Assembly: GCA_021108415.1 (NCBI GenBank) | Contig: JAIOQX010000003.1 | Span: 310,001-374,000 of the forward strand | Direction of reading: 5' to 3' | From: Acholeplasmataceae bacterium | GTDB lineage: Bacteria; Bacillota_I; Bacilli_A; Acholeplasmatales; Acholeplasmataceae | DNA: 64,000 nt | Shown here: positions 37,361-62,285 of the stretch, in pieces | Layout of the letters: each line of letters begins with the position of its first letter | Position numbering within the stretch: position 1 is the first letter of the stretch | Position numbers and translations under genes: made by a program | The notes under the pieces: model-generated | What the model was told of the DNA's origin: nothing | Seen by the model: only the letters and a program-made list of their open reading frames with translations | Databases searched by the model: none

Positions 37361-37400
37361 TATTATATAAAATATATTGCATATAAAAGAAGGTGTTAAC

Positions 37401-42204: not shown

Positions 42205-42867
42205 GTGAAAGTGAAGAAAATAATAAATCAATTATATGAATACATTGAAAAGAAATATAAATATAGTGAACCGTTTCTTTTGAAAGAATTATATGAAGGT
42301 TTTCCGGATGTTAATCAAGGTACAATTAGAGAATCGGTGAGGAGATTACTTGATCAAGAAAAATTGATTAAATCAAAAAATGGTGTCTATGGATTACCAG
42401 ATCCTAATCGAATATTAAAGACAGCTGTATTGAATTCTGAAGATGCCCTTAATAAAAAGTATATCAAGTCTGAAGATGGTAGTGTCATTGGATATAGAAG
42501 CGGATTCTATATTGCAAACGCATTAAGATTAACGACACAAACATCTAGCGATTTAGTGATATACTCTAATGAGGTATCAAAGAAAAAGAGAACCATAAAA
42601 GTTAAAAACATGAGAGTGATCATTAATCAATCTAGAGTTAGAGTGACCAACAAGAATTACAAGTTGCTTCAAGTTTTAGATTTATTCGTTGATTTTAACA
42701 AATTTAGTGAATACTCATTAAATGATTCAAAAGAGAAGATCAGTCATTATCTATATGAGCTAGACTTATCAAATGAAGAGATTGAACATATTGTAGAGGC
42801 ATATCCAAAAGATGCGCAAATACAGTTTTACAAATTGGGAGGGACTCATGCATTTACACACAAATAA
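42205..42867 (+). CDS. AbiEi-like antitoxin/transcriptional regulator (locus 2)
   Basis: A 220-aa protein with an N-terminal winged helix (EPFLLKELYEGFPDVNQGTIRESVRRLLDQEKLIKSKNGVYGLPD) and an AbiEi-type second domain (YRSGFYIANALRLTTQTSSDLVIYSNEVSKKKRTIKVKNMRVII). GTG start near AGGAGG; a second GTG six bases on is also possible. It differs in sequence from the locus 1 antitoxin, so the two loci are not a recent duplication. Its 3' end overlaps the toxin gene. Confidence 0.82.
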   Translation: MKVKKIINQLYEYIEKKYKYSEPFLLKELYEGFPDVNQGTIRESVRRLLDQEKLIKSKNGVYGLPDPNRILKTAVLNSEDALNKKYIKSEDGSVIGYRSGFYIANALRLTTQTSSDLVIYSNEVSKKKRTIKVKNMRVIINQSRVRVTNKNYKLLQVLDLFVDFNKFSEYSLNDSKEKISHYLYELDLSNEEIEHIVEAYPKDAQIQFYKLGGTHAFTHK

Positions 42868-45014: not shown

Positions 45015-45052
45015 TACAAGCGCTTATGATTAAAAATAAAGGAGAGATCACT

Positions 45053-46058: not shown

Positions 46059-46088
46059 AGCACTTAAGCCTTTTAAGTGCTCTTTTTA
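46059..46088 (+). terminator. Terminator after the recombinase genes
   Basis: AGCACTTAA/TTAAGTGCT perfect 9-bp stem with GCCTT loop and CTTTTT tail. Confidence 0.85.
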
Positions 46089-46187: not shown

Positions 46188-46847
46188 ATGAAATTATTCA
46201 AATTTAGAACAATGGATGTGATGATATTGAGTGATAATTCATTTTTTAAACCAACGGCCCTTTATAAAGAATTTATGATCCTAGATCTAATTGAAAAAGA
46301 TGCACACATCACACAACGAGAGATTGCTCAATCAATTGGAATTGCTGTATCTTTGGTCAACAATTATTTAGATGTTTATGAGAAAAAGGGATTCATAAAA
46401 AGAAAATATAAATCAACTAAATCAGTTGAGTATTTTATGACGAAAAGTGGTTTAGAAAGAAGAAAATTACTTAATATATGGTATTTAAATGCTTCATATA
46501 ACGTTTATCTATCAGCAAAAGATAATATCATCATGTTTTTAGATCAAATCATAGAAAAAGGATTCAAAAGAATTTTATTATATGGTGCAGGAGAAGTCGC
46601 AGAGATATTACTTCAAGTCTTAAATGATTATGATAAACTGCCATTAAAGATTTTAGCAGTCATTGATGATGACACTAGTAAACAGGATAAAAAGATTGTA
46701 AGTAAGTTAATTATTAATCTTAATCAAATAAGTGATTATAATCACGATGGTATCCTTATCGCAAGTTATAAACATCATATCTCAATTAGAAATCATCTAG
46801 AGAGTATTAAGTATCCAAAAGATAAAATTATAGAGTTTTTTCAATAA
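46188..46847 (+). CDS. Winged-helix regulator with Rossmann-like nucleotide/sugar-sensing domain
   Basis: A protein of up to 219 aa; the precise start is uncertain (several ATG/TTG codons, no clear ribosome site). The N-terminal half is a MarR/IclR-like wHTH ([49 protein letters not shown]). The C-terminal half ([48 protein letters not shown]) resembles the CoA-binding Rossmann domain found in CapD-type dehydratases and sugar acetyltransferases. It stands at the head of the polysaccharide operon, 11 bases before ugd. The domain pair suggests a regulator that senses a nucleotide-sugar or related metabolite. Confidence 0.75.
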
Positions 46848-46858
46848 GGGAGGAACAT

Positions 46859-48025
46859 ATGAAAATCGCAGTTGTTGGTACAGGTTATGTAGGACTATCT
46901 AATGCAGTCTTATTTAGTCAACATCATGAAGTTATAACACTAGATGTAGTTAAAGAGAGAGTTGATTTAGTCAATAATAAAAAATCACCTATTGTAGATG
47001 TTGAATTAGAAGAATATCTAAAAAACAAAGATTTAAATCTTAAGGCAACTCTTGATAAAAGTGAAGCATATCAAGATGCATCATTTGTTGTGATAGCAAC
47101 ACCTACAAATTATGATCCAAATAAAAACTATTTTGATACATCAACTGTTGATGGTGTTATTACTGATATAGCAAAATATAATCCAAAAGCTACTATTATT
47201 GTAAAGTCAACAATACCTGTAGGCTATACAAAAGAACAAAGAGAAAAACATCCAAATTTAAAAATTATATTCTCACCAGAGTTCTTAAGAGAAGGAAAAG
47301 CATTATATGATAATCTATATCCTTCTAGAATTGTTGTAGGTGAACATTCTAAAGAAGCTGAAATGTTTGCAGATCTATTAAAAGAAGCAGCAATAAAAAA
47401 AGATATACCAGTTTTATTTACGAGTTCTACAGAAGCTGAAGCCATTAAACTTTTCTCAAATACTTATCTTGCGATGAGAGTTGCATTCTTTAATGAATTA
47501 GATACTTATGCAGAAGTTAGAGGTCTAGATTCAAAAGAAATCATTGAAGGTGTTGGACTAGATCCAAGAATTGGATCTCATTATAACAATCCTTCATTTG
47601 GATATGGTGGATATTGTCTACCTAAAGATACAAAGCAATTGCTTGCTAATTATCAAGATGTTCCACAGAATATCATGGCAGCAATAGTGGATGCAAATAG
47701 AACCAGAAAAGATCATATCTCAGATAGTATCTTAGCTAAAAAACCAAATATAGTCGGTATATATAGACTTGTTATGAAAAGTGATTCAGATAATTTTAGA
47801 CAATCAGCCATCCAAGGCATTATGAAACGTTTAAAAGCAAAAGGTATTGAGGTTGTAGTCTATGAACCTGTATTAAAAGAAAATGAATTCTATGGTTCAA
47901 AAGTTATTAGAGATATTAATCAATTTAATGATATGTGTGATGTTATTGTGTCAAATAGATTTTATAAAGAGTTAGAAAATGTTAAAGAAAAAGTTTATAC
48001 GAGAGACTTATTTAATAGAGATTAG
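46859..48025 (+). CDS. ugd: UDP-glucose 6-dehydrogenase
   Basis: A 388-aa nucleotide-sugar dehydrogenase oxidising UDP-glucose to UDP-glucuronate with 2 NAD+. The N-terminal loop [42 protein letters not shown] and [15 protein letters not shown] are family signatures. The catalytic cysteine is in [14 protein letters not shown]. The length equals the short E. coli Ugd form. AGGGAGGAAC precedes the ATG. The epimerase gene next door uses its product. Confidence 0.93.
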
Positions 48026-48036
48026 GGGATTTGTCA

Positions 48037-49044
48037 ATGAATGATACATATTTAGTAACTGGTGCAGCAGGATTTATAGGCTATTATTTATCTAAAAGAT
48101 TATTAATTGAAGGTTATAATGTTGTTGGTGTAGATAATCTCAATGATTATTATGATGTGAATTTAAAATATACTAGACTAGAGTTATTAAATGAAAGTAG
48201 TAATTTTAAATTTCATAAAATAGATATATCTGATAAATTAGCTTTGGAAAATATATTTAAAACTTATAAAATTGATTATGTTATTAATTTAGCTGCACAA
48301 GCTGGTGTAAGATATTCTATTGAAAATCCTGATGTCTATATACAAAGCAATATCATCGGAACTTATAATATTCTTGAGATGTGTAGACATTATCATATTA
48401 AGCATTTAGTATACGCTTCAAGTAGTTCTGTATACGGAGCAAATAAAAAAGTTCCTTACGAAGAAACAGATTTTGTTGACCATCCTGTTTCACTTTATGC
48501 AGCAACTAAGAAGAGTAATGAACTTATGGCTCATACATACAGTCATCTATATGACATACCATCAACCGGACTAAGATTCTTTACGGTTTATGGTCCCTTA
48601 GGAAGACCGGATATGGCATATTTTGGATTTACTGATAAATATTTTAATAATGAAACGATTAAAATATTTAATAATGGTGATTTTGAAAATGATATGTATA
48701 GAGATTTCACTTATGTAGATGATATCGTTGAAGGCATTATGAGGGTCCTTAAAACTCCACCTAAAGATGAGAATCCGATGCATAGAGTTTTAAATATTGG
48801 TAATAATAAACCAGAAAAATTAATGTATTTCATCAATACATTGGAAGAGTGTTTATCAAATTCTTTAAATAAAAAGATAGAATTTAGTAAAGAATTTGAA
48901 CCCATAAAACCTGGTGATGTTCATAAAACATATGCATCTACAAAGATACTAGAAAATTTAGTTGGTTTTAAACCAGACACATCTATTAAAGATGGGTTGC
49001 AAAAATTTACAGATTGGTATGTTTCATACTATAAAAAAGGATAA
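48037..49044 (+). CDS. UDP-glucuronate 4-epimerase-like protein
   Basis: About 335 aa starting at MNDTYLVTGAAGFIGYYL (48037), six bases after GGGGAT; the track start is a TTG inside the spacer. An extended SDR with NAD loop TGAAGFIG, AAQAGVRYSIENP, active-site Ser/Tyr/Lys in ASSSSVYG and YAATKKSNE. FFTVYGPLGRPDMAYFGFT and YRDFTYVDDIVEG mark the UDP-glucuronate/UDP-galacturonate epimerase group. With ugd it should supply UDP-GalA for polymer assembly. UDP-glucose 4-epimerase activity cannot be fully excluded. Confidence 0.88.
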   Translation: MNDTYLVTGAAGFIGYYLSKRLLIEGYNVVGVDNLNDYYDVNLKYTRLELLNESSNFKFHKIDISDKLALENIFKTYKIDYVINLAAQAGVRYSIENPDVYIQSNIIGTYNILEMCRHYHIKHLVYASSSSVYGANKKVPYEETDFVDHPVSLYAATKKSNELMAHTYSHLYDIPSTGLRFFTVYGPLGRPDMAYFGFTDKYFNNETIKIFNNGDFENDMYRDFTYVDDIVEGIMRVLKTPPKDENPMHRVLNIGNNKPEKLMYFINTLEECLSNSLNKKIEFSKEFEPIKPGDVHKTYASTKILENLVGFKPDTSIKDGLQKFTDWYVSYYKKG

Positions 49045-49049
49045 ATAAT

Positions 49050-49679
49050 ATGTTTTATATAAAATTTAAAAGATTTTATGATACTGTAATAGCATTTATA
49101 GGATTGGTAATACTATCTCCATTATTCTTTTTGTTAGTTGTCTTAATTAAAATAGATTCAAAAGGTCCAATCCTTTTTAGACAAAAAAGAATTGGACGTC
49201 ATAAAAAACATTTTTATATTCTAAAATTTAGAACAATGAAAATAGATACACCAAAAGATACACCAACTCATATGCTAGAAAATCCAAAACAATGGATTAC
49301 TAAAATGGGTAAGTTCTTAAGAAAAACTAGTTTAGATGAACTACCACAAATTATTAATATTCTTAAAGGTGATATGTCTATCATAGGTCCTAGACCTGCA
49401 TTATGGAATCAATTTGACTTGGTTGAAGAAAGAGATAAATATGATGTGCATGATTTATATCCAGGTTTAACTGGATATGCACAAATACATGGTAGAGATG
49501 AACTCCCTATCATTGAAAAAGCAAAGTTAGATGGATATTATGTAGATAATATAAATCTTTGGTTAGATATAAGAGTTTTCTTTGGAACTATCATTAGTAT
49601 ATTTAAATCTGATGGGGTTGTTGAAGGTGGAACTGGAGAATTAGAAAAGAAACAAATAGACTTAAAAGAAAATAAGTAG
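49050..49679 (+). CDS. Initiating sugar (phospho)transferase, polyprenyl-phosphate type
   Basis: A 209-aa monotopic transferase of the bacterial sugar transferase family, which loads a sugar-1-phosphate onto undecaprenyl phosphate to begin the repeat unit. One re-entrant membrane helix (DTVIAFIGLVILSPLFFLLVVLI) precedes GPILFRQKRIGRHKKHFYILKFRTM, the LRKTSLDELPQIINILKGDMSIIGPRP core with the Asp-Glu pair, and YPGLTGYAQIHGRDEL. The small size and lack of other helices are PglC/WecP-like. It likely takes a diNAc-bacillosamine/QuiNAc-type or galactose donor. Confidence 0.92.
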   Translation: MFYIKFKRFYDTVIAFIGLVILSPLFFLLVVLIKIDSKGPILFRQKRIGRHKKHFYILKFRTMKIDTPKDTPTHMLENPKQWITKMGKFLRKTSLDELPQIINILKGDMSIIGPRPALWNQFDLVEERDKYDVHDLYPGLTGYAQIHGRDELPIIEKAKLDGYYVDNINLWLDIRVFFGTIISIFKSDGVVEGGTGELEKKQIDLKENK

Positions 49680-49687
49680 GTATACCT

Positions 49688-50548
49688 ATGAAACGAGTAT
49701 TAATAACAGGTGCGAATAGCTACGTTGGAACTAATGTTGAAAAGTGGTTATTAAGAGAACCTGATAAATATCATGTAGAAACTCTAGATATGAAAGACCC
49801 AAATTGGAGAGATTTTGATTTTTCTAAGTTTGATGTTGTATTTCATGTTGCAGGAATTGCGCATGTTTCTACTCGAAAAATACATAATGATCTTTACTTC
49901 AAAATAAATCGAGACTTAGCGATTGAAACAGCCCAAAAAGCAAAATTAGATGGAGTTAAACAATTTATTTTTATGAGTTCTATTATTATTTATGGAAAAG
50001 ACAATAAAATTGGTGATTATCGTTCTATAAAAATAAACGATTATTCACCTGAAAATTCATATGGTCAAAGTAAATTAGAGGCTGATTTGGCAATACAGTT
50101 AATTGGTGAAGAAAATTTTAAGACAGTTATACTTCGATCACCAGTAATTTATGGTCCGAATAGTAAAGGGAATTTTGCAAAATTACAAAAAATTGCAGCA
50201 AGAGTACCAGTTTTTCCAAATATTGATAACCAGAGAAGCATGATATATATTGATAATTTGTGTATGTTCATCAAAGTAGCAATAGAGAAACTTTATACTG
50301 GGATATTTTATCCGCAAAATTTAGAATATATGAAAACTAAAGATATCATAAAATATTTCAGATTAGCAATGGGAAAACCATACAGAGAAACAAAAATTTT
50401 TAATCCGCTTTTAAAAGTAGCAGGAATTTTTTTCCCAATTATCAATAGAATATTCGGAAATAAAACTTATAAGCACAGCGATAGTATAAATAACTTTTCA
50501 TATATCTCATGTGAAGAAAGTCTGAAAAGGATGGCGAGTAATAATTGA
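49688..50548 (+). CDS. NAD-dependent epimerase/dehydratase-type reductase of nucleotide sugars
   Basis: A 286-aa extended SDR: NAD loop RVLITGANSYVGTNVEKWLL, FHVAGIAHVS, MSSIIIYGKDN and the catalytic YGQSKLEADL. It resembles WbpV-like enzymes that reduce UDP-4-keto-6-deoxy-GlcNAc to UDP-QuiNAc/FucNAc, commonly next to an initiating transferase and paired with a CapD-type 4,6-dehydratase. The only such dehydratase in the window is at 14.2 kb. Substrate is inferred. The next gene starts within its stop codon. Confidence 0.75.
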   Translation: MKRVLITGANSYVGTNVEKWLLREPDKYHVETLDMKDPNWRDFDFSKFDVVFHVAGIAHVSTRKIHNDLYFKINRDLAIETAQKAKLDGVKQFIFMSSIIIYGKDNKIGDYRSIKINDYSPENSYGQSKLEADLAIQLIGEENFKTVILRSPVIYGPNSKGNFAKLQKIAARVPVFPNIDNQRSMIYIDNLCMFIKVAIEKLYTGIFYPQNLEYMKTKDIIKYFRLAMGKPYRETKIFNPLLKVAGIFFPIINRIFGNKTYKHSDSINNFSYISCEESLKRMASNN

Positions 50549-51651
50549 AAAAAAAGATTTTGTTTCTAGTTAATCATGACATTGTGATATATAACTTTAG
50601 AAAAGAACTAGTAAAAGAACTTATTGACAGTAATTATGCTGTATATATATCGTCTCCGAATGGACCAACGATTAAACTCCTGGAAAATATCGGCGCAACA
50701 TTTATTGAGACAAAAATAGATAGGCACGGTATTAATCCATTTGCTGATATACTTTTGATTAAAAAGTATCTAAAATTTATTAACGAAATTAAACCAGATG
50801 TCATTTTATCTTTTACAATAAAACCTAATATATATGGTGGAATTGCTGCAAGAATAACTAAGACACCATATATATCTAATATTACGGGCTTAGGTACTGC
50901 TGTTGAAAAAAAAGGCATACTTAGTTTCGTTACTACAACACTTTATAGATTTGCACTGAAAAATGCTAATTGTATCTTCTTTCAAAATAGTGAAAATATG
51001 AATTATATGGCAAGCAAAAACATAAATGGTAAATCAAAAGTGTTATTACCAGGGTCAGGAGTCAATATAGATGATTATCCTTTATTAGAATACCCTAATG
51101 AAAAAGGCATACACTTTTTATTCGTTGCAAGAGTTATGAAAGCAAAAGGGATAGATTATTATTTAGAAGCAGCAAAAATAATAAAAAGCAGGCATCCAAA
51201 TATAGTGTTCCATGTTCTTGGTGACTGTGAAGAAAATTATCGTAAAAAATTAGAGAACTATGAAAAAATGGGATATATTTTGTATCATGGAAGGCAAAAT
51301 GATATGATTAAATATTATAAGTTATCACACTGTACAATTCATCCAAGTTATTATCCTGAAGGAATTTCGAATGTATTACTAGAAAGTGCGTCTTGTGGTA
51401 GACCAATTATTACAACTAAAAGATCAGGGTGCCAAGAAGCAGTAGATCAAGGTATTACAGGGTATTTGATTGATTGTAAGAATCTTGATCAATTAGTCGA
51501 TGCGATTGAACATTTCTTATCTCTTTCATTAGCAGAAAAAAAGAGAATGGGTTATTTGGGAAGGTTGAAAATGGAAAGGTCATTTAATCGTAGAATTGTC
51601 ACTGAAGAATATATGAGGTTTATATTAAATATTACAAGAAATATTAATTAA
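50545..51651 (+). CDS. Glycosyltransferase family 4 (PglA-like)
   Basis: A 368-aa GT-B retaining glycosyltransferase. The N-terminal segment ILFLVNHDIVIYNFRKELVKEL and LSFTIKPNIYGGIAARITKTPYISNITGLGTAVE match the PglA-like group that adds the second sugar to polyprenyl-linked acceptors. The C-terminal domain has FLFVARVMKAKGIDYYLEAA and the EGISNVLLESASCGRPIITT donor-site Glu motif. Start is TTG overlapping the preceding stop (TTGA). It probably works directly after the initiating transferase. Confidence 0.88.
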   Translation: MKKKILFLVNHDIVIYNFRKELVKELIDSNYAVYISSPNGPTIKLLENIGATFIETKIDRHGINPFADILLIKKYLKFINEIKPDVILSFTIKPNIYGGIAARITKTPYISNITGLGTAVEKKGILSFVTTTLYRFALKNANCIFFQNSENMNYMASKNINGKSKVLLPGSGVNIDDYPLLEYPNEKGIHFLFVARVMKAKGIDYYLEAAKIIKSRHPNIVFHVLGDCEENYRKKLENYEKMGYILYHGRQNDMIKYYKLSHCTIHPSYYPEGISNVLLESASCGRPIITTKRSGCQEAVDQGITGYLIDCKNLDQLVDAIEHFLSLSLAEKKRMGYLGRLKMERSFNRRIVTEEYMRFILNITRNIN

Positions 51652-51678
51652 GTTTAGATAGTGTGATGAGGTGAAATA

Positions 51679-52575
51679 ATGGATGGTTACAAAAAAATAT
51701 TCAAATCTAAAAAAACACGTGACAGAATACTAAAAATTTTATTTTTTATTCCAAATAAATTAATGCTTAAGATTCAATATAAAATTAAACTCAAAAGGTT
51801 TCCAAATTTTTCTCATCCAAAAAGGTTTACTGAAAAGATACAGTTATATAAAATCAACTATAAAAATGATATACTGAAAAAATGTATCGATAAATATGCG
51901 GTTCGAGAATACGTAAAAAGCAAAAATCTGGATTACATTTTAAATAAAAATTATGGTGTTTACGACAACTTTAAAAATATTGATTTTTCTAGACTTCCAA
52001 AAAAATTTGTTATAAAAACAACAAATGGTGGAGGGGGATTGAATATTTTGATTTGTAAAGACAAAGAGGCTATTGATTATGTTGCTTACGAGAAAGCAAT
52101 ATCAGATTGGAGCAAAGTGCTTAAGTCTAGAGATGGGGGCAGAGAATGGGCATACAGCAATTTAAAGCCAAGGATCATAATTGAAGAATATCTAGAAAAT
52201 TCTATTAATCCGGATTCAGGAATTAGTGACTATAAATTTTTTTGCTTTAATGGAATTCCGAAATATGTGGTTGTTGATTCAAACAGATATATAAAACACG
52301 TAAGAAATTTTTATGATTCAGAGTGGAATTACTTGAATATTTCAAGTGATCACGAGAATATGGGAGATATACTTGATAAACCAAAAAATTATGAACAAAT
52401 GATCAATATAGCAAAAAAACTATCATCGGATTTTCCTTTTGTTAGAGTAGATTTATATAATTTAAACGGTGTAATAAGATTTGGAGAATTAACATTTTAT
52501 CCATGGAGTGGGTACGTTCAATTTTTTCCAGATGATTTTGATATACTTTTGGGAAATGAATTCACTTTTTATTGA
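51679..52575 (+). CDS. TupA-like ATP-grasp protein (1)
   Basis: A 298-aa protein of the TupA-like ATP-grasp family found in polysaccharide loci. It has the typical opening RFPNFSHPKRFTEKIQLYKINYKNDILKKCIDKYAVREYVKSK, then YGVYDNF, RLPKKFVIKTTNGGGGLNIL (nucleotide loop) and KPRIIIEEYLEN. The C-terminal ATP-grasp metal region is FVRVDLYNLNGVIRFGELTFYPWSG. Family members are thought to form amide links, as in teichuronopeptide synthesis, so it may attach an amino acid or amine to a uronic acid of the polymer. A paralogue lies at 57161. Confidence 0.85.
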   Translation: MDGYKKIFKSKKTRDRILKILFFIPNKLMLKIQYKIKLKRFPNFSHPKRFTEKIQLYKINYKNDILKKCIDKYAVREYVKSKNLDYILNKNYGVYDNFKNIDFSRLPKKFVIKTTNGGGGLNILICKDKEAIDYVAYEKAISDWSKVLKSRDGGREWAYSNLKPRIIIEEYLENSINPDSGISDYKFFCFNGIPKYVVVDSNRYIKHVRNFYDSEWNYLNISSDHENMGDILDKPKNYEQMINIAKKLSSDFPFVRVDLYNLNGVIRFGELTFYPWSGYVQFFPDDFDILLGNEFTFY

Positions 52576-52631
52576 TTCAAAAGAATCATGTGTGCAGTTA
52601 AATCATATAATTAGTATATAGGAGGTTGAAA

Positions 52632-53771
52632 ATGGAAAAAGATTTTAGAATTGTTCATGTATTTGCTGGATTAGATAGAGGTGGAGCAGAAACAATGATA
52701 ATGAATTTATATCGAAACATAGATAGAAATATTATTCAATTTGATTTCATTGTGAACGATTCAAATAAAACATATGACTATGAGAATGAAATCCTTGCTC
52801 TTGGAGGAAAGATTTTTAGAGTGCCTAGATTGAATCTTACAAACTATAAAAAGTATAAAAATGAATTTGATAAAATCCTTGAGAATAATCCAGAAATTAA
52901 AATTGCACACTGTCATTATTTAGCTACTAGCGCATTCTATTTTCCTATTTTAAGAAATAGTGATATTATCACTATTGCCCATAGTCATATTGCAGGAACT
53001 CATCTAAGTCCAAAAAATATAATAAAATTCTTTTCGAGAAAGTTGATAAAATTTCAAGCTGATTATTTGTTTGCATGTTCACTAAAAGCATCTAGATATA
53101 TGTTTGGATTTAAATATCAACAAGCCAAAATATTATATAATTCAATTGATTTGGGTATGTTTAAATTTAACCAAGCCAATAGGGTGGATTATCGTAAAGA
53201 GTTTGATGTTGAAGACAGGTTCGTCATAGGTCATATAGGTCGATTTGATAAGCAAAAGAATCATCGTTTCATTTTAAAATTATTTAAGGTTTTATATGAA
53301 AAAGATAATAGTTTTATACTTTTTCTAATTGGTGAGGGAAAATTAAAAAATAGAATGCTAAAATTAGCACACACATTAAATGTTGAAAAAGGAGTACGTT
53401 TTCTAAATAATAGGAACGATATTTCTCAAATCATGAATATGTTTGATGTGTTTATTTTACCTTCTCTTTATGAAGGGTTACCAGTTACTGCAATTGAGGC
53501 ACAATCAAATTCTCTTTTAACTTTAGTTTCTAATAAAGTTACATCTGAAACGTCAATTACAAATAACATTAAATATTTACCTATTAATAAAGGAATTAGT
53601 TTGTGGGTAGATGAGTTGCTAGATGTAAAATCAAATTTACGACATAGAATTGCAACCGTGATTCAGGGAAATAATTATGATGTTATACATAATTCCAATG
53701 ATTTGAAAAATACATATTTGAAAATTTTGTTTGAAAACAAACCTCAAAAAGAAACTGAGGTGATTGTATGA
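52632..53771 (+). CDS. Glycosyltransferase family 4/1 (EpsF-like) (1)
   Basis: About 379 aa starting at MEKDFRIVHVFAGLDRGGAETMIMNLYRNIDR (52632), six bases after GGAGG; the track begins at an upstream TTG. GT-B fold: the acceptor domain opens with the GGAETMIMNLYR motif of EpsF-type transferases. The donor domain has IGHIGRFDKQKNHRFILKLF, LIGEGKLK and FILPSLYEGLPVTAIEAQ. The donor and linkage are unknown. Its 3' end overlaps the next glycosyltransferase by 4 bases. Confidence 0.88.
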   Translation: MEKDFRIVHVFAGLDRGGAETMIMNLYRNIDRNIIQFDFIVNDSNKTYDYENEILALGGKIFRVPRLNLTNYKKYKNEFDKILENNPEIKIAHCHYLATSAFYFPILRNSDIITIAHSHIAGTHLSPKNIIKFFSRKLIKFQADYLFACSLKASRYMFGFKYQQAKILYNSIDLGMFKFNQANRVDYRKEFDVEDRFVIGHIGRFDKQKNHRFILKLFKVLYEKDNSFILFLIGEGKLKNRMLKLAHTLNVEKGVRFLNNRNDISQIMNMFDVFILPSLYEGLPVTAIEAQSNSLLTLVSNKVTSETSITNNIKYLPINKGISLWVDELLDVKSNLRHRIATVIQGNNYDVIHNSNDLKNTYLKILFENKPQKETEVIV

Positions 53772-54862
53772 TAAGAGTATTACATATTGTTGGTGCAATG
53801 CATAGAGGCGGGCAAGAAACTCTAATTATGAATTTGTTTAGACAAATTGATAGAAAAAAAGTGCAATTTGATTTTATAGTTCACACAACTAAAAAAATGG
53901 ATTACGATGATGAAATATTGAACTTGGGTGGAATAATACATAGGGTATGTAGAAAAAAAATATCATTTATAAAAAATTTGCTACAAATTCGAAATATAGT
54001 AAAGAAAAATAGATATATTATAGTACACCGACATGGCGATAATAGTTTCTTTATATCAGTGGATTTGTTTGCAGCAAAAATTGGCGGTGCAAAAGAACTA
54101 ATATCTCATTCTCATAATACATCAACAAAAGCAAAGTTTTTACATAAATTATTTCGTAAGTTTAATAACAAAATATCGAATCATAAGTTCGCATGCGGCA
54201 ATGATGCTGGCCAATGGATGTATAGAAATAATAATTTCACTATAATAAAAAATGGAATCGACTTAAAATTTTTCGAATATAAATTGAAATATAGAGAAGA
54301 GATTAGAAGTGAACTCGATATTGAATCAAATCGATTTGTAATTTGTCATGTCGGTAGATTTAATGAACAGAAAAACCATATATTTATTATTGATATATTT
54401 GCTGAATTATTAAAAACACTTCCCAAAGCAATCTTATTACTTATAGGTGATGGAGAGCTAAGAAATCAAATTGAGAGAAAGATAAAACATTTAGGTATTG
54501 AAAAGAATATTTATTTGTTGGGAAAGAGAAATGATATAAATAAAATATTAATGGGATCTGATTTGTTCTTATTCCCTTCTCTATTTGAAGGATTGCCAGT
54601 TTCACTAATTGAAGCCCAAGCAAGTGGTATAACAATTGTTATGTCGAGTGTAATAACTGATGAAGTAATTATTTCTAGGAATGTTGAAAAAATTTCTTTA
54701 TCACAGGATAACCTGTTTTGGGTAAAACAAATAGTGAATTATTCAACACTCAAACGAAAGGGAATTGAGTTTAATAATCATCTAAAAGAATACGATTCTG
54801 AAGCTATTTCTATCAATCTGCAAAATTTCTATTTGAATTTAAATGGAAATGATTTATGTTAA
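53768..54862 (+). CDS. Glycosyltransferase family 4/1 (EpsF-like) (2)
   Basis: A 364-aa GT-B enzyme closely similar in plan to the preceding gene product: VLHIVGAMHRGGQETLIMNLFRQIDRKKVQFDFIVH, HSHNTSTKAKFLHKLF, ICHVGRFNEQKNHIFIIDIF and LFPSLFEGLPVSLIEAQASG. The pair probably arose by duplication and may add successive sugars. ATG overlaps the upstream stop by 4 bases, and its own end overlaps the next start by 7 bases. Confidence 0.88.
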   Translation: MIRVLHIVGAMHRGGQETLIMNLFRQIDRKKVQFDFIVHTTKKMDYDDEILNLGGIIHRVCRKKISFIKNLLQIRNIVKKNRYIIVHRHGDNSFFISVDLFAAKIGGAKELISHSHNTSTKAKFLHKLFRKFNNKISNHKFACGNDAGQWMYRNNNFTIIKNGIDLKFFEYKLKYREEIRSELDIESNRFVICHVGRFNEQKNHIFIIDIFAELLKTLPKAILLLIGDGELRNQIERKIKHLGIEKNIYLLGKRNDINKILMGSDLFLFPSLFEGLPVSLIEAQASGITIVMSSVITDEVIISRNVEKISLSQDNLFWVKQIVNYSTLKRKGIEFNNHLKEYDSEAISINLQNFYLNLNGNDLC

Positions 54863-55938
54863 AAATACTGTTTGTTATACCCTCATTAACTTTTGGAGGA
54901 GCTGAAAGAGTTATATCGTTACTTGCAAACAATTTACAAAGTAAAAAATATAAGATTTCAATATTATTAATTTCTAATTGCAGACAAGAATATAAAATAA
55001 ACAGAAATGTGCAAGTTATAAATATAGAAGATAAAATCCACAAAAAATTATTTTTGCCATCTTGGATACAGAGAATTGGTAAAATTCGAACCGTATTCAA
55101 AACTACAAAACCTGATATTATTGTTTCTTTTCTTGTCACAAGTAACATATATTCATGCGTTGCTAATCTCTTTTTAAATTCAAAGCTAATTATAAGTGAA
55201 AGAAATGATCCACATAAAGAGCCAAAATCTATTATTAAAAGGATGGTAAGAAAGCTCGTCTATCCAATGGCACAAGGTTTTGTGTTTCAAACATCTGATG
55301 CCATGCATTTTTTCAATCGAAAAATTCAGAACAAAGGTGTTGTTATACCTAATCCAGTTATAGATAATCTTCCTATTTATGATATTAGGCTATCTAAAAA
55401 TAAAATTGTTACAATCGGAAGACTTGAAAAACAAAAAAACCAGATTCTTTTATTGGAAGCGTTCCATAAATTTCTTCAAATATTTCCTGACTATTCTTTA
55501 CATGTTTTTGGAAATGGGAGTTTGAGTAGCAGTTTAAAGGAAAAATGCAACGAGCTTCGGATAAATGAAAATGTCATTTTTGAAGGTGTGGTAGACGATG
55601 TACATTCTAAAATTTTGGATGCGAAAATGTTTATTCTCACTTCTGATTATGAAGGAATGCCAAATTCATTGATTGAATCTATGGCAATTGGTATTCCTTC
55701 AATTTCCACCGACTCTCCCATAGGCGGCCCTAAAATGCTAATTACAAATGAGTTTAATGGAATTTTAATACCAGTAAAAGATAAAAATAAATTGATTTCA
55801 TCAATGACTAAACTAGCCAATGATTTTGACTATTGTAAATTTTTATCCGAAAACGCAAAAAATATTCGAAAGATTCATTCTTTAGAAAATATTATTTTAT
55901 TATATGATAAATATTTTAAAGTTGTGATTGAGAGGTAA
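54856..55938 (+). CDS. Glycosyltransferase family 4 (3)
   Basis: A 360-aa GT-B transferase opening ILFVIPSLTFGGAERVISLLANNLQSKKYKIS. FLVTSNIYSCVANLFLNSKLIISERNDPHKEPKS is typical of amylovoran/PglJ-type group 1 enzymes. The donor domain has IVTIGRLEKQKNQILLLEAFHKF, FEGVVDDV and LTSDYEGMPNSLIESMAIGIPSISTDSPIGGPKMLI. Sugar specificity is unknown. Translationally coupled to both neighbours. Confidence 0.88.
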   Translation: MLKILFVIPSLTFGGAERVISLLANNLQSKKYKISILLISNCRQEYKINRNVQVINIEDKIHKKLFLPSWIQRIGKIRTVFKTTKPDIIVSFLVTSNIYSCVANLFLNSKLIISERNDPHKEPKSIIKRMVRKLVYPMAQGFVFQTSDAMHFFNRKIQNKGVVIPNPVIDNLPIYDIRLSKNKIVTIGRLEKQKNQILLLEAFHKFLQIFPDYSLHVFGNGSLSSSLKEKCNELRINENVIFEGVVDDVHSKILDAKMFILTSDYEGMPNSLIESMAIGIPSISTDSPIGGPKMLITNEFNGILIPVKDKNKLISSMTKLANDFDYCKFLSENAKNIRKIHSLENIILLYDKYFKVVIER

Positions 55939-55942
55939 AAAA

Positions 55943-57157
55943 ATGGAAAATATAAATAACAATTTGTTTATTAAATTATGGAGATATTCTATGTATCTCT
56001 ATTTAACAATGATGATTGCTTTTTCCGGAAATCCCAATACTTCACTGTTAAGCTCAATCTCTTTATATATATTTATCATAGTAACTCTATACAATCTATT
56101 CATACGTAAAAAATTTTTTATAGATTATTTTGTTTTTTTTCTTGTAGTCTACATGGCTTTTCTGGCTTTTAGTTTCTTTTATACACCATCAACTGAAATA
56201 TTTCTTTCTACTTTCTATCAGTTTTTTACATCCACTGTCATTATTGCTTTGATATCAAACTACGTTTATATAACTAAAGGATTTAAAGACATTGTCAATG
56301 CATATATATTAGGTGGAATTATATTATTGTCTTACGCATTATATCTATATGGCTTTGATATAGGTCAAACTGTTGAAAATAGTAATTATTTACTTCGAAT
56401 CGGAGCTGAACTAGGTAACACTAATACAGTTGGATTAAAACTAGCATTTTTATTTGTTCTTATTTTCTATAAACTGTTATATTTTAAAACCAAGATTACA
56501 GGTAAAATTATATTTTTTATTACTATGATTTTTTCATTTGGATTTTCTATGCTTACTGGTTCAAAAAAAGCTATAATATTTATTTTCTTAGGAATATTTA
56601 TTTTATCATTTCCCAAAATTAATTTCAGGAGAAATGGATTAAAGTCAGTAATTAATTTTGTATTCATAGCTCTATTAATATATATTCTGTATTATTCAAT
56701 ATTCAATTTTGAATTATTCAGAACTATTTCTTATAGAATAACTCAATTACTCAACTTTTTCTCAAATTCTGGTGGATCTGAGTCTGAACTTCTAAGAGCA
56801 GAATACATAAAACAAGGTATAATAGAAACTTTAAAAAGTCCTTTTTTAGGAAGGGGAGCATTTTCATCTTATTCCTTTTTTGGGACATATTCTCATAATA
56901 ACTATATTGAAATTTTGCTCAATACAGGTGTTATTGGCTTTTTTATTTTCTATATATCTTATTTTTTCTTGACTTTTGAGTTGAAAAAACAGGATTCTTC
57001 AAATAAATTTAGATTATTGGGAATATTCTACTTACTAAGTATAGTGATTCTTGGATTTAGTATGGTGTATTATTACGACAGGTATTTTATGATTTTTCTC
57101 GCAGGTGTTGTTGCGATGTCATCAAATAATATTGTGATTAGAATTAAAGGTAGGTAG
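55943..57157 (+). CDS. O-antigen/capsule polymerase (Wzy-like)
   Basis: About 404 aa starting at MENINNNLFIKLWRYSMYLY (55943) after GAGAGG; the track uses a weaker upstream TTG. Ten to twelve membrane helices are predicted, with a large loop in the C-terminal half and the Wzy/ligase motif TYSHNNYIEILLNTGVIGFFIFYISYFF (His in HNxxIExLxxxG). It should polymerise flipped repeat units at the outer face of the membrane. Such polymerases vary greatly in sequence, so the call depends on topology, this motif and the locus. Confidence 0.85.
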   Translation: MENINNNLFIKLWRYSMYLYLTMMIAFSGNPNTSLLSSISLYIFIIVTLYNLFIRKKFFIDYFVFFLVVYMAFLAFSFFYTPSTEIFLSTFYQFFTSTVIIALISNYVYITKGFKDIVNAYILGGIILLSYALYLYGFDIGQTVENSNYLLRIGAELGNTNTVGLKLAFLFVLIFYKLLYFKTKITGKIIFFITMIFSFGFSMLTGSKKAIIFIFLGIFILSFPKINFRRNGLKSVINFVFIALLIYILYYSIFNFELFRTISYRITQLLNFFSNSGGSESELLRAEYIKQGIIETLKSPFLGRGAFSSYSFFGTYSHNNYIEILLNTGVIGFFIFYISYFFLTFELKKQDSSNKFRLLGIFYLLSIVILGFSMVYYYDRYFMIFLAGVVAMSSNNIVIRIKGR

Positions 57158-57160
57158 AAT

Positions 57161-58072
57161 ATGAAAAAATTTTTTAGAGCTAAATTTATAAAAAAATTGT
57201 TATTAAAATTTCTTGATTTTAAGTTTTCGCATGTCATTGGGGATAAATTATATCTTAAAATTAAGTATTTATGTATAATGGATAGAAAATTAAACCTCAA
57301 AACTCCTCGAACATTTAATGAAAAAATACAATGGCTAAAAATCTACGATAGAAAAAAAAATGATACAGACCAAGTCGATAAAGTTTTGGTTCGAGAATTT
57401 GTTGCTAGAACTATAGGATCTGAATTTCTAATACCAATTTATGGTGTATATAGTTCTTATGATGAAATCAATTTTAATGATCTACCAAATCAATTTGTTT
57501 TAAAACCTAATCACACATCTGGTGATGTTTATATATGCAAAAATAAAAATTTGATAAATCATTCAGTTCTGAAAAAAACTATTAGAAAATGGATGAGAAT
57601 TAATTATTATTGGAAACATAGAGAATTCGCATATAAAAATATCAAACCTAAAATACTATGTGAAAAACTATTGATAGGTGACAATAGTAGTGATTTAATG
57701 GATTATAAACTAATGGTTTTCAATTCTAAGGTTAAATGCACCTTTGTCACACAAGATAGGCACAAAGAAGATGGATTAAAAATGGACTTTTTTGATCGGA
57801 ATTGGAATTTCATGCCTTTTACTCGAAAATATCCAAATACTAACAAAAAGATTCAAAAGCCGATATTGTATGAAAAGATGGTTGAACTAGCAGAAAAGTT
57901 ATCTTGCAATAGGATATTTGTGAGGGTAGATTTCTATTTTATTGAAAATAAAATTTTTTTTGGTGAACTAACGCTACATCCTGGGTCTGGTTTTGAGAAA
58001 TTTGAACCTACTCTGTATGATAATATGTTAGGTGAGTGGATTGATTTGAGATTGTTAAAGGAGGTTAATTAA
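57161..58072 (+). CDS. TupA-like ATP-grasp protein (2)
   Basis: A 303-aa paralogue of the 51679 gene product: LNLKTPRTFNEKIQWLKIYDRKKNDTDQVDKVLVREFVARTIG, YGVYSSYDEINFNDLPNQFVLKPNHTSGDVYIC, IKPKILCEKLLIGDNSSDLMDYKLMVFN and RIFVRVDFYFIENKIFFGELTLHPGSGFEKF. Two such genes in one locus suggest two different amide modifications, or modification of two sites on the repeat unit. It starts three bases after the polymerase stop. Confidence 0.85.
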   Translation: MKKFFRAKFIKKLLLKFLDFKFSHVIGDKLYLKIKYLCIMDRKLNLKTPRTFNEKIQWLKIYDRKKNDTDQVDKVLVREFVARTIGSEFLIPIYGVYSSYDEINFNDLPNQFVLKPNHTSGDVYICKNKNLINHSVLKKTIRKWMRINYYWKHREFAYKNIKPKILCEKLLIGDNSSDLMDYKLMVFNSKVKCTFVTQDRHKEDGLKMDFFDRNWNFMPFTRKYPNTNKKIQKPILYEKMVELAEKLSCNRIFVRVDFYFIENKIFFGELTLHPGSGFEKFEPTLYDNMLGEWIDLRLLKEVN

Positions 58073-58073
58073 A

Positions 58074-59198
58074 TTGAATATAATTATTGCAGGGGATTTA
58101 TACATTAGCAATGTAAATGAAAAAGATTTTGTGAATGGGAATTTAACAGATGTAATTGATAATGAATTACTAGATCAATGGTTAAATTGTGATTATAGAA
58201 TTTTTAATTTAGAAGCTCCGTTGACAAAAATCGAAAAACCTATAGATAAATTAGGTCCATCTCTTAAAATGGATCCTAATGTTATCAACGGGATAAGAAA
58301 ATTGTCTCCCAATCTAGTATTACTAGCTAATAATCATATTAAAGATTTTGGTCCCGATGGAATTAGTGATACTGTTAAAACATTGACAAAACACAATATA
58401 AAATATACAGGAATTGGAAATAATTCACAAAGTGCAAATCAACCAGTTATAGTTAATGGCGATAAAATTATTGGTATATATAATTTTTCCGAAAATGAAT
58501 TCGCAAAATTCGAAAACGAAAAATTGGGGTCTGCGTCTTTAAATTTGCCCTTGAATCTTTCGATAATATCTGAACTAAAGTCAAAGGTCGATTATGTTAT
58601 AGTGATTTTTCATGGTGGAAAAGAGGAGTATAAATATCCAAGTCCTAAACTACAAGAACTATGTAGGAGTTTTGTTGATTATGGTGCAAATATTGTTATT
58701 TGTCAGCATACTCATACTATTGGTTCGTATGAAAAGTATAAAGATTCAAATATTATATATGGACAAGGTAATTTTATATTTAACTATAAAAGCAAAGAAT
58801 GTTGGAAGACTGGGTTACTAATTAATCTTCACTTCAGTGATGAACAAAAAATAGATTTTATTCCTTTCAAGCAAACGTCTAAAGGGATTTCTTCAATGTC
58901 AACAGCAGAATCCAAAGAAATATTGGAGCACTTTTATCTAAGAAGCAAAACGATTTTGGATGAATTAAAACTAAAAGAAATGTATCAAATATACGCAAAT
59001 CAAAACATAGATTACTACATTTACGAAATTATCGCTTTTCCTAAGATACTTAAAAAATTAGATGTAAAGATTTTTAAGGGAAGAATTCTTAAGTATTATC
59101 TTAAAAAAAATAAAATCTTGAGTCTGATTAATTATTTTGAATGTGAATCTCATAATGAGCTTATAATTGAAGGTCTTAAATCATATTTAAAAAAATAA
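58074..59198 (+). CDS. CapA/PgsA-like metallophosphatase-fold capsule protein
   Basis: A 374-aa protein of the PGA_cap (CapA) family. Motifs: IIIAGDLYISNVNEKDF, YRIFNLEAPLTKIEKP, VLLANNHIKDFGPDGISDTVKTL (metal-site Asn-His), VIVIFHGGKEEYKYPSPKLQELC and VICQHTHTIGSYEKYKDSNIIYGQGNFIF. There is no signal peptide or membrane helix, unlike many CapA proteins, so it may act in the cytoplasm on the TupA-type products. TTG start nine bases after AAGGAGG. Role in polymer modification is inferred from family and position. Confidence 0.85.
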   Translation: MNIIIAGDLYISNVNEKDFVNGNLTDVIDNELLDQWLNCDYRIFNLEAPLTKIEKPIDKLGPSLKMDPNVINGIRKLSPNLVLLANNHIKDFGPDGISDTVKTLTKHNIKYTGIGNNSQSANQPVIVNGDKIIGIYNFSENEFAKFENEKLGSASLNLPLNLSIISELKSKVDYVIVIFHGGKEEYKYPSPKLQELCRSFVDYGANIVICQHTHTIGSYEKYKDSNIIYGQGNFIFNYKSKECWKTGLLINLHFSDEQKIDFIPFKQTSKGISSMSTAESKEILEHFYLRSKTILDELKLKEMYQIYANQNIDYYIYEIIAFPKILKKLDVKIFKGRILKYYLKKNKILSLINYFECESHNELIIEGLKSYLKK

Positions 59199-59269
59199 GC
59201 AAATATATTGAAAAAAACCCAAAATTGTATTGTTAAAATGAATTTATTTAAATAGAGAGGTGTTCTAAC

Positions 59270-60364
59270 ATGACTAAGAAAAAAATCTTATTTATTTCCC
59301 CAGAGGGTTTAGGTAAGGGTGGTGTCCAGACCATAATTATGAATCTATATAGAAATCTATATGAATACTATGACTTTGATATATTGCTATTCACAAATGA
59401 AATTAGGTATTATGATGAAGAATTTAGTAAAAATGGCCTCATATATCGATACAATCTAAAAAGAAATAGATTTTTTAGGCAAATTTTTCCTTTCATATAC
59501 GGATTGAAAATATACAAAAAAACAAGAAATATTCTTACACAGAAAAAATATGATATCGTTCATTGCTTTGCCAATTACGATAATGTTTGGGCTCTAAAAG
59601 CAGCACAAAAACTCAAAATAAACAAACGGATAATTCATATAAATTCGACAAAACAAATTTATAACACGAAGAATCCTATTAAAAAAATTTACACATTATA
59701 TCTGATTAAAATGGGAAGGTTGACTGCATCAATACATCTTGCAGATAGTAAAAAGGCTGCAGAATCATATTTCCAAGTGAAATGTAAATATGAAATCGTT
59801 GAACCTGGATTTGATTATCATAAGTATCAGGTTAGCAAATGGGAAAAGAATGATCAAAAAATACGAATTCTTCAAGTAGGAAGGTTTGATGAAAATAAAA
59901 ACCAATTGTTTTCTATCAAGGTTTTTGAATTGCTTCAAAATAGCAATTCAAATTTTTTGCTAACTTTAGTGGGTTCGGGTCCTTACGAAAAAAAATTAAA
60001 GAGTTATATCAAAGAGAACAATATTCGCCAAATTGAATTTGAAAGATTTGACATAGATCTATTTAGTGAATATTCCAAAGCAGACATATTAATTTTTCCT
60101 TCAATTGAAGAAGCATTTGGAATAGTTCTTTTAGAAGCACAAAGCATGGGACTCACATGTTTTGTTTCAAGTTCAGTATCTAGAAGTGTAAACTTTGGTA
60201 ATTGTATCTATATTGATCTTCATCTAGGTGTAGAATATTGGGCTAAGTATATTAAAGAGTATGTCGAAAATAATAATTTGACAAAAAAGCCAGCTGATTT
60301 GGAAAAATTGTCATATGAAAATGCAAGTTTATCCTTTTTAGATATATATGAGAAAAGTAGTTAG
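59270..60364 (+). CDS. Glycosyltransferase family 4 (4)
   Basis: A 364-aa GT-B transferase: ILFISPEGLGKGGVQTIIMNLYRNLYEYYDFDILLFTNE is the EpsF-like opening with GGVQTIIMNLYR. IRILQVGRFDENKNQLFSIKVFELL and ILIFPSIEEAFGIVLLEAQSMG form the donor domain. GAGAGGTGTTCTAAC precedes the ATG. A 71-base gap before it is the longest within the operon. Donor and acceptor unknown. Confidence 0.88.
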   Translation: MTKKKILFISPEGLGKGGVQTIIMNLYRNLYEYYDFDILLFTNEIRYYDEEFSKNGLIYRYNLKRNRFFRQIFPFIYGLKIYKKTRNILTQKKYDIVHCFANYDNVWALKAAQKLKINKRIIHINSTKQIYNTKNPIKKIYTLYLIKMGRLTASIHLADSKKAAESYFQVKCKYEIVEPGFDYHKYQVSKWEKNDQKIRILQVGRFDENKNQLFSIKVFELLQNSNSNFLLTLVGSGPYEKKLKSYIKENNIRQIEFERFDIDLFSEYSKADILIFPSIEEAFGIVLLEAQSMGLTCFVSSSVSRSVNFGNCIYIDLHLGVEYWAKYIKEYVENNNLTKKPADLEKLSYENASLSFLDIYEKSS

Positions 60365-60372
60365 GTGATATA

Positions 60373-61893
60373 GTGAGTTCACAAGCAAGGAAGGGTAAGA
60401 AAAATTTAATCTATGGCTTTTTAGGACAATTTATAATTATGGCAGTAAGTTTAATTTTACCTAAATTCATGATTGATACTTTTGGTTCTGAAATTAATGG
60501 ACTTGTATCTTCAATCATGCAGTTATATTTGTATTTAAGTTTGTTAGAGGCGGGAATAGGGACTACTAGTATACAAGCATTGTATAAACCGATTTCTGAA
60601 AACGACACATTATCAATTAATTCTATTCTTTCTGCAACAAAATATTATTACAAAAAAACAGGAATCTATTATTTAATTGGAATCTTATTAATGGCGATAA
60701 TATATCCAATGATAATTAGTGTTCAGTTAAATTATTTGTATGTAGTATTTTTAATATTGTTTACTGGTTTCTCAAATGTCATAAGTTTTTTCTTTTATGC
60801 AAAGATTAAAGTTTTTCTCATAGCAAATGGAAATAATTATATTATTACGAATATCATGACTTTGGTTAAGTTAATTTCGAGTATTACAAAAATAGTTCTT
60901 ATTTTAGCTGGATTTAGTATTCTTATGGTTCAATTTTCTTTTATGATTATAAATATAATTCCACTATTTTTATTTCTTGTTTATATGAAGAAAAAATATC
61001 CTTCGATCAAATTTGATGAAAAACCAAATTTTGATGCGCTGAAGGAAAAAAATTCAGTACTAATACATCAAATATCAGGATTGATTTTTAGTAATTCTGA
61101 CATACTTATTTTATCAATATTTTTAAATTTAAAGATTGTTAGTGTTTATAGTGTCTACCTTCTATTCTATACTACTGTGTACACCCTAATTAACATAATT
61201 CCTGTGAGTTTGAATCATATTTTGGGGCAACAATACAACAATAATATAGAAGAATTTAAAAAAACTCATAATGTTTTTGAATTTTACTTTATGATAATTA
61301 ATTTTGCAGCATTTACAGTGGTAATGTTATATATACTACCATTCTTAAGTTTATATACATCAAACGTTAATGATGTTTCTTATATTAGTTACTTAGTTGC
61401 CTTATTATTTACAATTAATAATTTGCTACAAGCTGGTCGAGCTCCATCTTTGCAAATTATTAATTTTTCTCAAAGTTTTACTGGCACAAGAAATAGAGCA
61501 ATATTAGAAATGTTGATTAATCTCATTTCTTCATTAATACTTGTGCGGTTTTTTGGAATTTATGGCGTCTTGATTGGAACAACTTTAGCTCTTCTATATA
61601 GGGCTAATGACATTATTATATATGCAAACAAAAGAGTATTAAAAAGGAGTTCTTTTCAAACATATAAAAGATGGATTTTAAATTTCTCATTATTTATTGC
61701 AATTATTAATTTAAGTAATCTGTTTATTAGAGAGTATAAAGACTACTTTAAGATATTACAAGAAGTTATTTTTATAGCACCTATAATTTTGCTAATCTAT
61801 TTACTTGCTAACTTATTATTTGAAAGAAAAATGTTTGCTAGTTTGATAACTATCATTAAAAAATGGAAGAGCACAAAAAAAGTCAATAACTAA
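60373..61893 (+). CDS. Polysaccharide flippase (Wzx-like, MATE/MOP superfamily)
   Basis: A 506-aa protein with about 12-14 membrane helices, starting GKKNLIYGFLGQFIIMAVSLILPKFMIDTFGSEINGLVSSIMQLYLYLSLLEAGIGTTSIQALYKP, the classic Wzx opening. It exports lipid-linked repeat units across the membrane for the Wzy polymerase. GTG start with AGGTGAT upstream. Last gene of the polysaccharide operon. No Wzz/CpsC chain-length protein or CpsD-type kinase is encoded within the locus. Confidence 0.92.
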   Translation: MSSQARKGKKNLIYGFLGQFIIMAVSLILPKFMIDTFGSEINGLVSSIMQLYLYLSLLEAGIGTTSIQALYKPISENDTLSINSILSATKYYYKKTGIYYLIGILLMAIIYPMIISVQLNYLYVVFLILFTGFSNVISFFFYAKIKVFLIANGNNYIITNIMTLVKLISSITKIVLILAGFSILMVQFSFMIINIIPLFLFLVYMKKKYPSIKFDEKPNFDALKEKNSVLIHQISGLIFSNSDILILSIFLNLKIVSVYSVYLLFYTTVYTLINIIPVSLNHILGQQYNNNIEEFKKTHNVFEFYFMIINFAAFTVVMLYILPFLSLYTSNVNDVSYISYLVALLFTINNLLQAGRAPSLQIINFSQSFTGTRNRAILEMLINLISSLILVRFFGIYGVLIGTTLALLYRANDIIIYANKRVLKRSSFQTYKRWILNFSLFIAIINLSNLFIREYKDYFKILQEVIFIAPIILLIYLLANLLFERKMFASLITIIKKWKSTKKVNN

Positions 61894-62184
61894 TAAATTC
61901 TAAAATTAGTTTTTACTTTAATTACTTACAACAGTATATTTTCGTAAATGGATTAGGATATCAACTTTAATGTATCTTGACTAATATTTATTTTTATTTG
62001 AATGTTTATGTCGAATAAATACCATTATCTTCCTAAGAAAAGACAGTTTTAACTAGTGACTTTCATAAGAACATACAGTTCTATATGGACAGCCAGGACA
62101 TATTAAAACATATAGATAAATAATTGTTATTAAAAGTATTAAAAACATCACAACAAAGAACTAATCTCAACATCTTAAAAAATT
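61894..62184. other. Gene-free stretch after the polysaccharide locus
   Basis: About 290 bases up to a strong hairpin. I see no ORF with a ribosome site and no recognisable element other than a small AGAAC/GTTCT hairpin near 62067. Confidence 0.45.
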
Positions 62185-62230
62185 ATAAAAGACTTCATTT
62201 CAATAATTTAATTGAAATGAAGTCTTTTAT
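62185..62230. terminator. Strong bidirectional terminator
   Basis: About 20 perfect pairs, ATAAAAGACTTCATTTCAAT with ATTGAAATGAAGTCTTTTAT, loop AATTTA, between the flippase and the convergent transporter gene. Confidence 0.9.
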
Positions 62231-62285
62231 ATATTTAATATTAAATGAATATAAACTATAATGATTAATTACAATTTCTATAATG

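Follow-up and report, generated by a model that had tools for sequence, protein, structure and literature searches.

Organisation of the locus

This report concerns a polysaccharide operon of an Acholeplasmataceae bacterium, located in a stretch of 64,000 nucleotides (contig JAIOQX010000003.1 of assembly GCA_021108415.1, positions 310,001 to 374,000 of the forward strand) that is referred to below as the window and numbered from its first letter. The operon comprises 15 genes arranged head-to-tail on the plus strand between 46188 and 61893, with intergenic gaps of -11 to +71 bp, and encodes two TupA-like ATP-grasp proteins (TupA-1 and TupA-2) and a CapA-like protein. A preliminary description of the window had drawn attention to the span 51679-59198, which also takes in the three glycosyltransferase genes and the Wzy-type gene that separate TupA-1 from TupA-2; the functional unit reaches beyond this span on both sides, covering 46188-61893. 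The features are:

46059..46081, plus strand: terminator-like hairpin just 5' of the operon
46188..46847, plus strand: regulator at the operon head with helix-turn-helix and NAD-binding-like parts, Pfam HTH_24
46859..48025, plus strand: UDP-glucose 6-dehydrogenase (Ugd), makes UDP-glucuronic acid (UDP-GlcA)
48031..49044, plus strand: short-chain dehydrogenase/reductase (SDR), probable UDP-glucuronate 4-epimerase, closest solved relatives 5u4q and the 6zl6 group
49050..49679, plus strand: polyprenyl-phosphate hexose-1-phosphate transferase (initiating enzyme), PF02397 207.9 bits
49688..50548, plus strand: SDR epimerase/dehydratase, PF01370
50545..51651, plus strand: glycosyltransferase, GT4-like fold
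51679..52575, plus strand: TupA-1, predicted ATP-grasp amidoligase, 298 amino acids (aa), PF14305 182.5 bits
52626..53771, plus strand: glycosyltransferase, GT4-like fold
53768..54862, plus strand: glycosyltransferase, GT4-like fold
54856..55938, plus strand: glycosyltransferase, GT4-like fold
55928..57157, plus strand: Wzy-type polymerase/O-antigen ligase family membrane protein (Wzy_C), PF04932 37.8 bits
57161..58072, plus strand: TupA-2, predicted ATP-grasp amidoligase, 303 aa, PF14305 194.7 bits
58074..59198, plus strand: predicted cytosolic CapA-like metallo-enzyme, 374 aa, PF09587 (PGA_cap) 156.5 bits
59270..60364, plus strand: glycosyltransferase, GT4-like fold
60373..61893, plus strand: multi-pass membrane protein, probable Wzx-like flippase
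62184..62231, unstranded: bidirectional terminator-like hairpin with a 20-bp stem, closing the operon

Two intact TupA-like ATP-grasp proteins from different clades

All three proteins score far above the Pfam cut-offs (25 bits for PF14305, 27 bits for PGA_cap), confirming the earlier assignment of two TupA-like ATP-grasp proteins and a CapA-like protein to a uronate locus. The TupA matches span positions 1-240 of the 241 of the PF14305 profile, and six residues invariant across 23 TupAs (K115, E168, K183, R255, D257, and E269) are kept in both operon copies, which rules out a dead or degenerate ligase; judged by sequence, these residues would form the ATP-grasp core and contact ATP and Mg, with their catalytic roles assigned by prediction. 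An AlphaFold2 model of TupA-2 (predicted local distance difference test, pLDDT, 92.7) matched D-Ala-D-Ala ligases (Ddl), ArgX/LysX, RimK, and PsnB in Foldseek, all of them ATP-grasp ligases making amide or ester bonds, while a sequence search for solved TupA relatives found none. Many TupA relatives are publicly annotated as "ATP-grasp fold amidoligase family protein". Taken with the model, both TupAs are intact ATP-grasp proteins of the amide-ligase type, predicted to form amides.

The two copies are only 36% identical and fall into different clades of the TupA tree, ruling out a recent duplication inside the locus: TupA-2 groups with CapA-adjacent TupAs (99/99 support) and TupA-1 does not. 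According to family searches of the host genome (1.78 Mb, 6 contigs, 99.9% complete), on which all genome-wide statements of presence or absence below are based, they are its only PF14305 matches; among the 37 genomes of its family that were searched (genome sizes in the family are 0.7-2.2 Mb), TupA occurs in this host only.

Elsewhere, Wzy_C-TupA fusion proteins exist in three lineages (L044/L123, which are one and the same contig, L120, and L151), suggesting that amidation is coupled to polymerisation or ligation, and one locus (L135) carries a GT2-TupA fusion, as in Campylobacter. A further TupA fusion protein (L043) has a membrane N-terminal half. TupA-like proteins less than 60% identical are also encoded in 88 Klebsiella plasmid records.

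CapA is a conserved partner of amide ligases

TupA-2 starts 3 bp after the end of the Wzy gene, and CapA 1 bp after the end of TupA-2. The same arrangement recurs widely. We took the 80 best CapA relatives from a scan of 84,980 species genomes (29-45% identical to the operon's CapA); as these are best-scoring loci with a few near-duplicates (e.g. L178/L179), the counts are descriptive. A TupA gene lies within 3 kb of CapA in 46 of the 80 and within 100 bp in 33, while 21 others have a RimK-like ATP-grasp gene on the same fetched stretch (within 100 bp in 15), leaving only 13 with neither ligase. The identity of the partner is strongly clustered on the CapA tree, though with several switches. 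In Paenibacillus contaminans (L144), the gene between Wzy and CapA, in the position of TupA, is RimK-like. As with Wzy here, a polytopic protein is encoded before 13 of 28 non-fused TupA-CapA pairs, 4 of the 28 having no called upstream gene. Culturable bacteria with the TupA-CapA pair include Anaerobutyricum hallii, Sedimentibacter acidaminivorans, and Paenibacillus gallinarum. TupA-2 and CapA are therefore a conserved pair, and the association with amide ligases is conserved throughout this subfamily of CapA proteins as a whole. We found no published description of the TupA-CapA pairing, in a search that did not cover the amidoligase survey of Iyer et al. 2009.

The CapA subfamily is cytosolic, with mostly 7-13 residues ahead of the first catalytic Asp and neither a signal peptide nor a transmembrane anchor. 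In the operon's CapA the metallophosphoesterase domain begins at residue 2-3 and no hydrophobic export segment precedes it, in agreement with the preliminary description, which had noted the missing export signal.

In two of the tested CapA loci that lack TupA, an asparagine-synthase gene lies upstream. In Clostridia, several CapA relatives without a nearby ligase (L134, L153, and their neighbours L138, L155, L157, and L160) adjoin genes of the amidohydrolase, creatininase, esterase, or beta-lactamase families, where a catabolic use of the same CapA is possible.

Uronate supply and its association with TupA

Ugd is identified by comparison with solved structures (E=4e-182 to the UDP-glucose 6-dehydrogenase 3phl and E=2e-134 to the UDP-glucose dehydrogenase 1dli) and is the only full-length UDP-sugar dehydrogenase detected in the host genome. 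Of the earlier suggestion that the first genes supply UDP-glucuronate and its 4-epimer, the former part stands on Ugd; for the latter, the SDR at 48031..49044 is probably of the UDP-glucuronate-4-epimerase type, its exact substrate being a prediction from sequence.

Direct biochemical precedent for a TupA-type reaction on such a sugar comes from Campylobacter, where the TupA-like C-terminal domain of Cj1438 amidates GlcA at its C6 carboxylate in vitro (PMC11800379, PMC13276843). Cj1438C joins serinol phosphate or ethanolamine phosphate to GlcA, whereupon Cj1435 strips the phosphate (PMC11800379), and the HS:19 serotype follows the same logic of ligation and dephosphorylation with HS19.11C and HS19.09 (PMC13276843). 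Many bacterial surface glycans are known to contain uronic acid amides with Ala, Ser, Thr, Lys, Glu, and ornithine, as well as with 2-aminopropane-1,3-diol and D-allothreonine (PMC10609480), so that calling such a polymer "unusual", as had been done, is too strong. Nor did the term "peptide-modified" find support, as each of the known relatives adds just one amine or one amino acid.

Across the phylum, sampled TupA loci that also contain an initiating sugar transferase had a Ugd close to the operon's in 7 of 10 cases, compared with 2 of 40 control loci picked for having no TupA and not phylogenetically matched (Fisher p=4e-5). In an eighth TupA locus (G043) a UDP-sugar dehydrogenase lies just beyond the fetched stretch. 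An epimerase was present in 5/10 and 2/40 of the same two sets, respectively. Together with the Cj1438 precedent, this co-occurrence makes the proposal that the ATP-grasp enzymes amidate uronate carboxyls more than conjecture, and the earlier interpretation as a whole is partly supported.

A probably wall-less host

Neither the FtsW/RodA family nor a penicillin-binding transpeptidase had a match in the host genome, each being present in 10 of 14 control genomes, whereas undecaprenyl-diphosphate synthase (UppS) is present. The absence of both families together with the presence of UppS supports a probably wall-less cell, as the preliminary description had anticipated. Parts of a Wzx/Wzy pathway were detected, namely the PF02397 transferase, Wzy_C, and UppS. 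The protein at 60373..61893 matched no Pfam model, and is a probable flippase by virtue of its position and its homologues in other polysaccharide loci.

Proposed pathway and the reaction of CapA

From what is directly observed, namely the gene families, the fold, the intact active-site residues, the operon, and the conserved gene partnerships, we infer the ligase substrates, the acceptor sugar, the reaction of CapA, and the final polymer. On balance we consider it fairly probable that the operon specifies a polyprenol-linked uronate polysaccharide that is amidated by the two TupA ligases, with CapA finishing the ligated product; amide decoration of a surface polysaccharide is likely in its own right. 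The polymer would contain glucuronic and/or galacturonic acid, the carboxyls of which would be activated by the TupA ligases at the expense of ATP (as acyl phosphates) before an amino acid or small amine is attached. Since TupA-1 and TupA-2 come from different clades, they probably add different substituents or act on different sugar positions. TupA-2 would act together with the Wzy protein of the preceding gene and the CapA of the following one, and cytoplasmic CapA would finish the product before export and polymerisation. We think CapA is probably an enzyme whose substrate is the ligated product. It could either invert the attached amino acid at its alpha-carbon, the reaction that MslH carries out at a peptide C-terminus, or dephosphorylate an attached amino-alcohol phosphate in the manner of Campylobacter Cj1435.

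The first of these options, in which CapA is an MslH-type alpha-carbon epimerase producing a polysaccharide decorated with D-amino acids, can be put forward tentatively. A model of CapA (pLDDT 94.0) has the lasso-peptide epimerase MslH as its nearest fold in the PDB (E=3e-19), and a sequence-profile search likewise gives MslH as the sole convincing relative in the PDB (E=3.5e-27), though as the only solved family member found it is nearest by default. The two His/Asp dyads of MslH (H88/D91 and H295/D11) correspond to H88/D91 and H214/D8 of CapA, and three of its Ca ligands (E44, N87, and H259) to E47, N87, and H180; the fourth, His261, is replaced by Gly182. MslH binds the free carboxylate of an N-acyl amino acid, which is the chemical form of a uronate-linked amino acid, and D-allothreonine, the alpha-epimer of L-threonine, is known in amide linkage to galacturonic acid (GalA) (PMC10609480). 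Against this, CapA reaches just 48.4 bits with the NCBIfam equivalog model for MslH, far from its cut-off of 700. On this score and the missing His261 we dropped the assignment of CapA to MslH itself and retained it as a mechanistic analogy, from which the alpha-epimer chemistry is drawn.

The alternative chemistry, in which TupA-2 ligates serinol phosphate or ethanolamine phosphate to the uronate and CapA takes the place of Cj1435/HS19.09 as the phosphatase, strikes us as somewhat unlikely, despite an exact biochemical precedent for ligation followed by dephosphorylation (PMC11800379, PMC13276843). The fold is calcineurin-like, with 5'-nucleotidases ranking second after MslH, and CapA keeps the residue set of the phosphodiesterase YmdB: D8, E39, N67, H68, D71, H150, H175, and H177 of that enzyme (metal-site and catalytic residues as listed in PMC10406935) correspond to D8, E47, N87, H88, D91, H180, H212, and H214 of CapA. 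However, Asn40, a metal-site ligand of YmdB, has no counterpart in CapA, as in the single-metal MslH. Moreover, no pyridoxal phosphate (PLP) enzyme of the serinol-phosphate or phosphoserine-decarboxylase type is found among the 15 operon proteins, and the commonest families of 109 neighbours sampled from TupA-CapA loci include none either. The pairing of CapA with a second kind of amide ligase, the RimK-like proteins, also speaks against a phosphatase. RimK-like ligases usually use amino acids. Because of this pairing, the absence of an accompanying serinol-phosphate or ethanolamine-phosphate gene, and the action of MslH on an N-acylated residue with a free carboxylate, we lean slightly towards the epimerase over the phosphatase.

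That CapA is instead a non-catalytic or regulatory partner of a ligase/Wzy complex, or that it serves in export or assembly, the role suggested for CapA/PgsA of poly-glutamate capsules, is unlikely. Its tight coupling to ligase and Wzy genes, the family name, and the association with poly-glutamate would fit such a role, but the subfamily has no signal peptide or transmembrane anchor, and each of eight metal-site residues (D8, E47, N87, H88, D91, H180, H212, and H214) is kept by 79-81 of 81 CapA sequences, which argues for catalysis. Membership of a poly-glutamate synthase was ruled out, as CapA has no anchor and the operon contains no CapB or CapC.

Several points weigh against the pathway of uronate amidation and CapA finishing proposed here. 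Besides the unmatched controls mentioned above, both candidate chemistries of CapA fit the data, and to our knowledge no enzyme of the CapA-associated TupA clade has been assayed so far. No Ugd was present on the fetched stretch in 29 of 39 sampled TupA loci, many of them from one family (f9), whose roughly twenty TupAs form a clade of their own (100/99) in a non-uronate context. Even among long CapA+TupA loci, a clear UDP-Glc dehydrogenase or UDP-GlcA epimerase was seen in only 15 of 36, and acceptors therefore need not always be GlcA or GalA. The loci without Ugd and the large f9 clade could be explained if the TupAs acted on another carboxyl (pyruvyl, N-acyl lactate) or joined peptides to an acceptor other than a uronate, in which case the uronate genes would be present incidentally. 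We regard this as improbable for the present operon, given the strong tie of TupA to Ugd within loci holding an initiating sugar transferase and the use of GlcA by the Campylobacter enzyme (PMC11800379). The f9 members (L050, L052, L055-L060, L062, L063, L065-L071, L073-L075, and L077) belong to a single family of small-genome Bacilli relatives, in which TupA is not near Ugd or an initiating transferase.

Comparison with known systems

Systems of this kind are known; what is new is that TupA/CapA (or RimK/CapA) forms a conserved module and that this module is present in a probably wall-less bacterium. The only biochemically defined uronate amidoligase we found in the literature is that of Campylobacter, and the present system would work in a similar way, with a different architecture and with CapA as partner. 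As with Cj1438C/HS19.11C of Campylobacter jejuni, a TupA-like ATP-grasp protein is encoded in a polysaccharide locus, there a capsule locus, with a UDP-Glc dehydrogenase (PMC11800379, PMC13276843, PMC10919079), and an amide on GlcA is followed by the action of a dedicated second enzyme, here as predicted from the genes. Unlike in Campylobacter, where ligase and GT2 transferase form a single protein and the phosphatase Cj1435/HS19.09 acts second, the TupAs of the operon (298 and 303 aa) are free-standing, its glycosyltransferases are GT4-like, the second enzyme is CapA-like, and no serinol-phosphate synthase or PLP family occurs among the 15 proteins.

The TupA of teichuronopeptide synthesis in alkaliphilic Bacillus, which we take to be the founder of PF14305, is alike by description, belonging to the same Pfam family and serving a polymer with polyglucuronate; teichuronopeptide is, however, a cell-wall polymer, and the host of the operon lacks the peptidoglycan enzymes named above. 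CapA shares with MslH (8gq9) the PGA_cap/calcineurin-like fold, both dyads, and three of four metal ligands, and differs in Gly182; the operon contains no lasso-peptide genes, and its CapA is partnered by an amide ligase and encoded among polysaccharide genes. With CapA/PgsA of poly-gamma-glutamate synthesis the operon's CapA has in common the Pfam family PGA_cap and an amide-forming ligase as partner, whereas it lacks their export signal or anchor, and neither a Mur-ligase-like CapB nor CapC accompanies it.

The module of Wzy, ATP-grasp ligase, and cytosolic CapA recurs in Firmicutes, Bacteroidetes, Saccharibacteria, Elusimicrobia, Planctomycetes, Verrucomicrobia, and others, which makes the function of CapA, a family of which little is understood, amenable to testing. 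It predicts which organisms bear amidated, possibly D-amino-acid-bearing, capsules. As a more speculative extension, for which we hold modest expectations, the cytosolic CapAs beside TupA or RimK-like ligases in many phyla may all be alpha-carbon epimerases, forming a general two-gene module that ligates and then inverts to give D-amino-acid capsules, in the present case on a probably wall-less bacterium. Neutralising or altering the charge of the sole surface polymer could matter for envelope stability when a cell has no peptidoglycan.

Genes flanking the operon

In almost every sampled locus of the same family, homologues of the regulator at the operon head adjoin the sugar transferase. Phase switching of the operon by a recombinase acting on inverted repeats was considered and set aside, as no clean repeat pair was found. 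Two tandem XerC-like tyrosine recombinases are encoded directly upstream of the operon (44073-46018). A few kb upstream lie two separate toxin-antitoxin pairs of the AbiEi/AbiEii phage-defence type, at 37377-38928 and 42205-43801 (PADLOC, E down to 1e-77).

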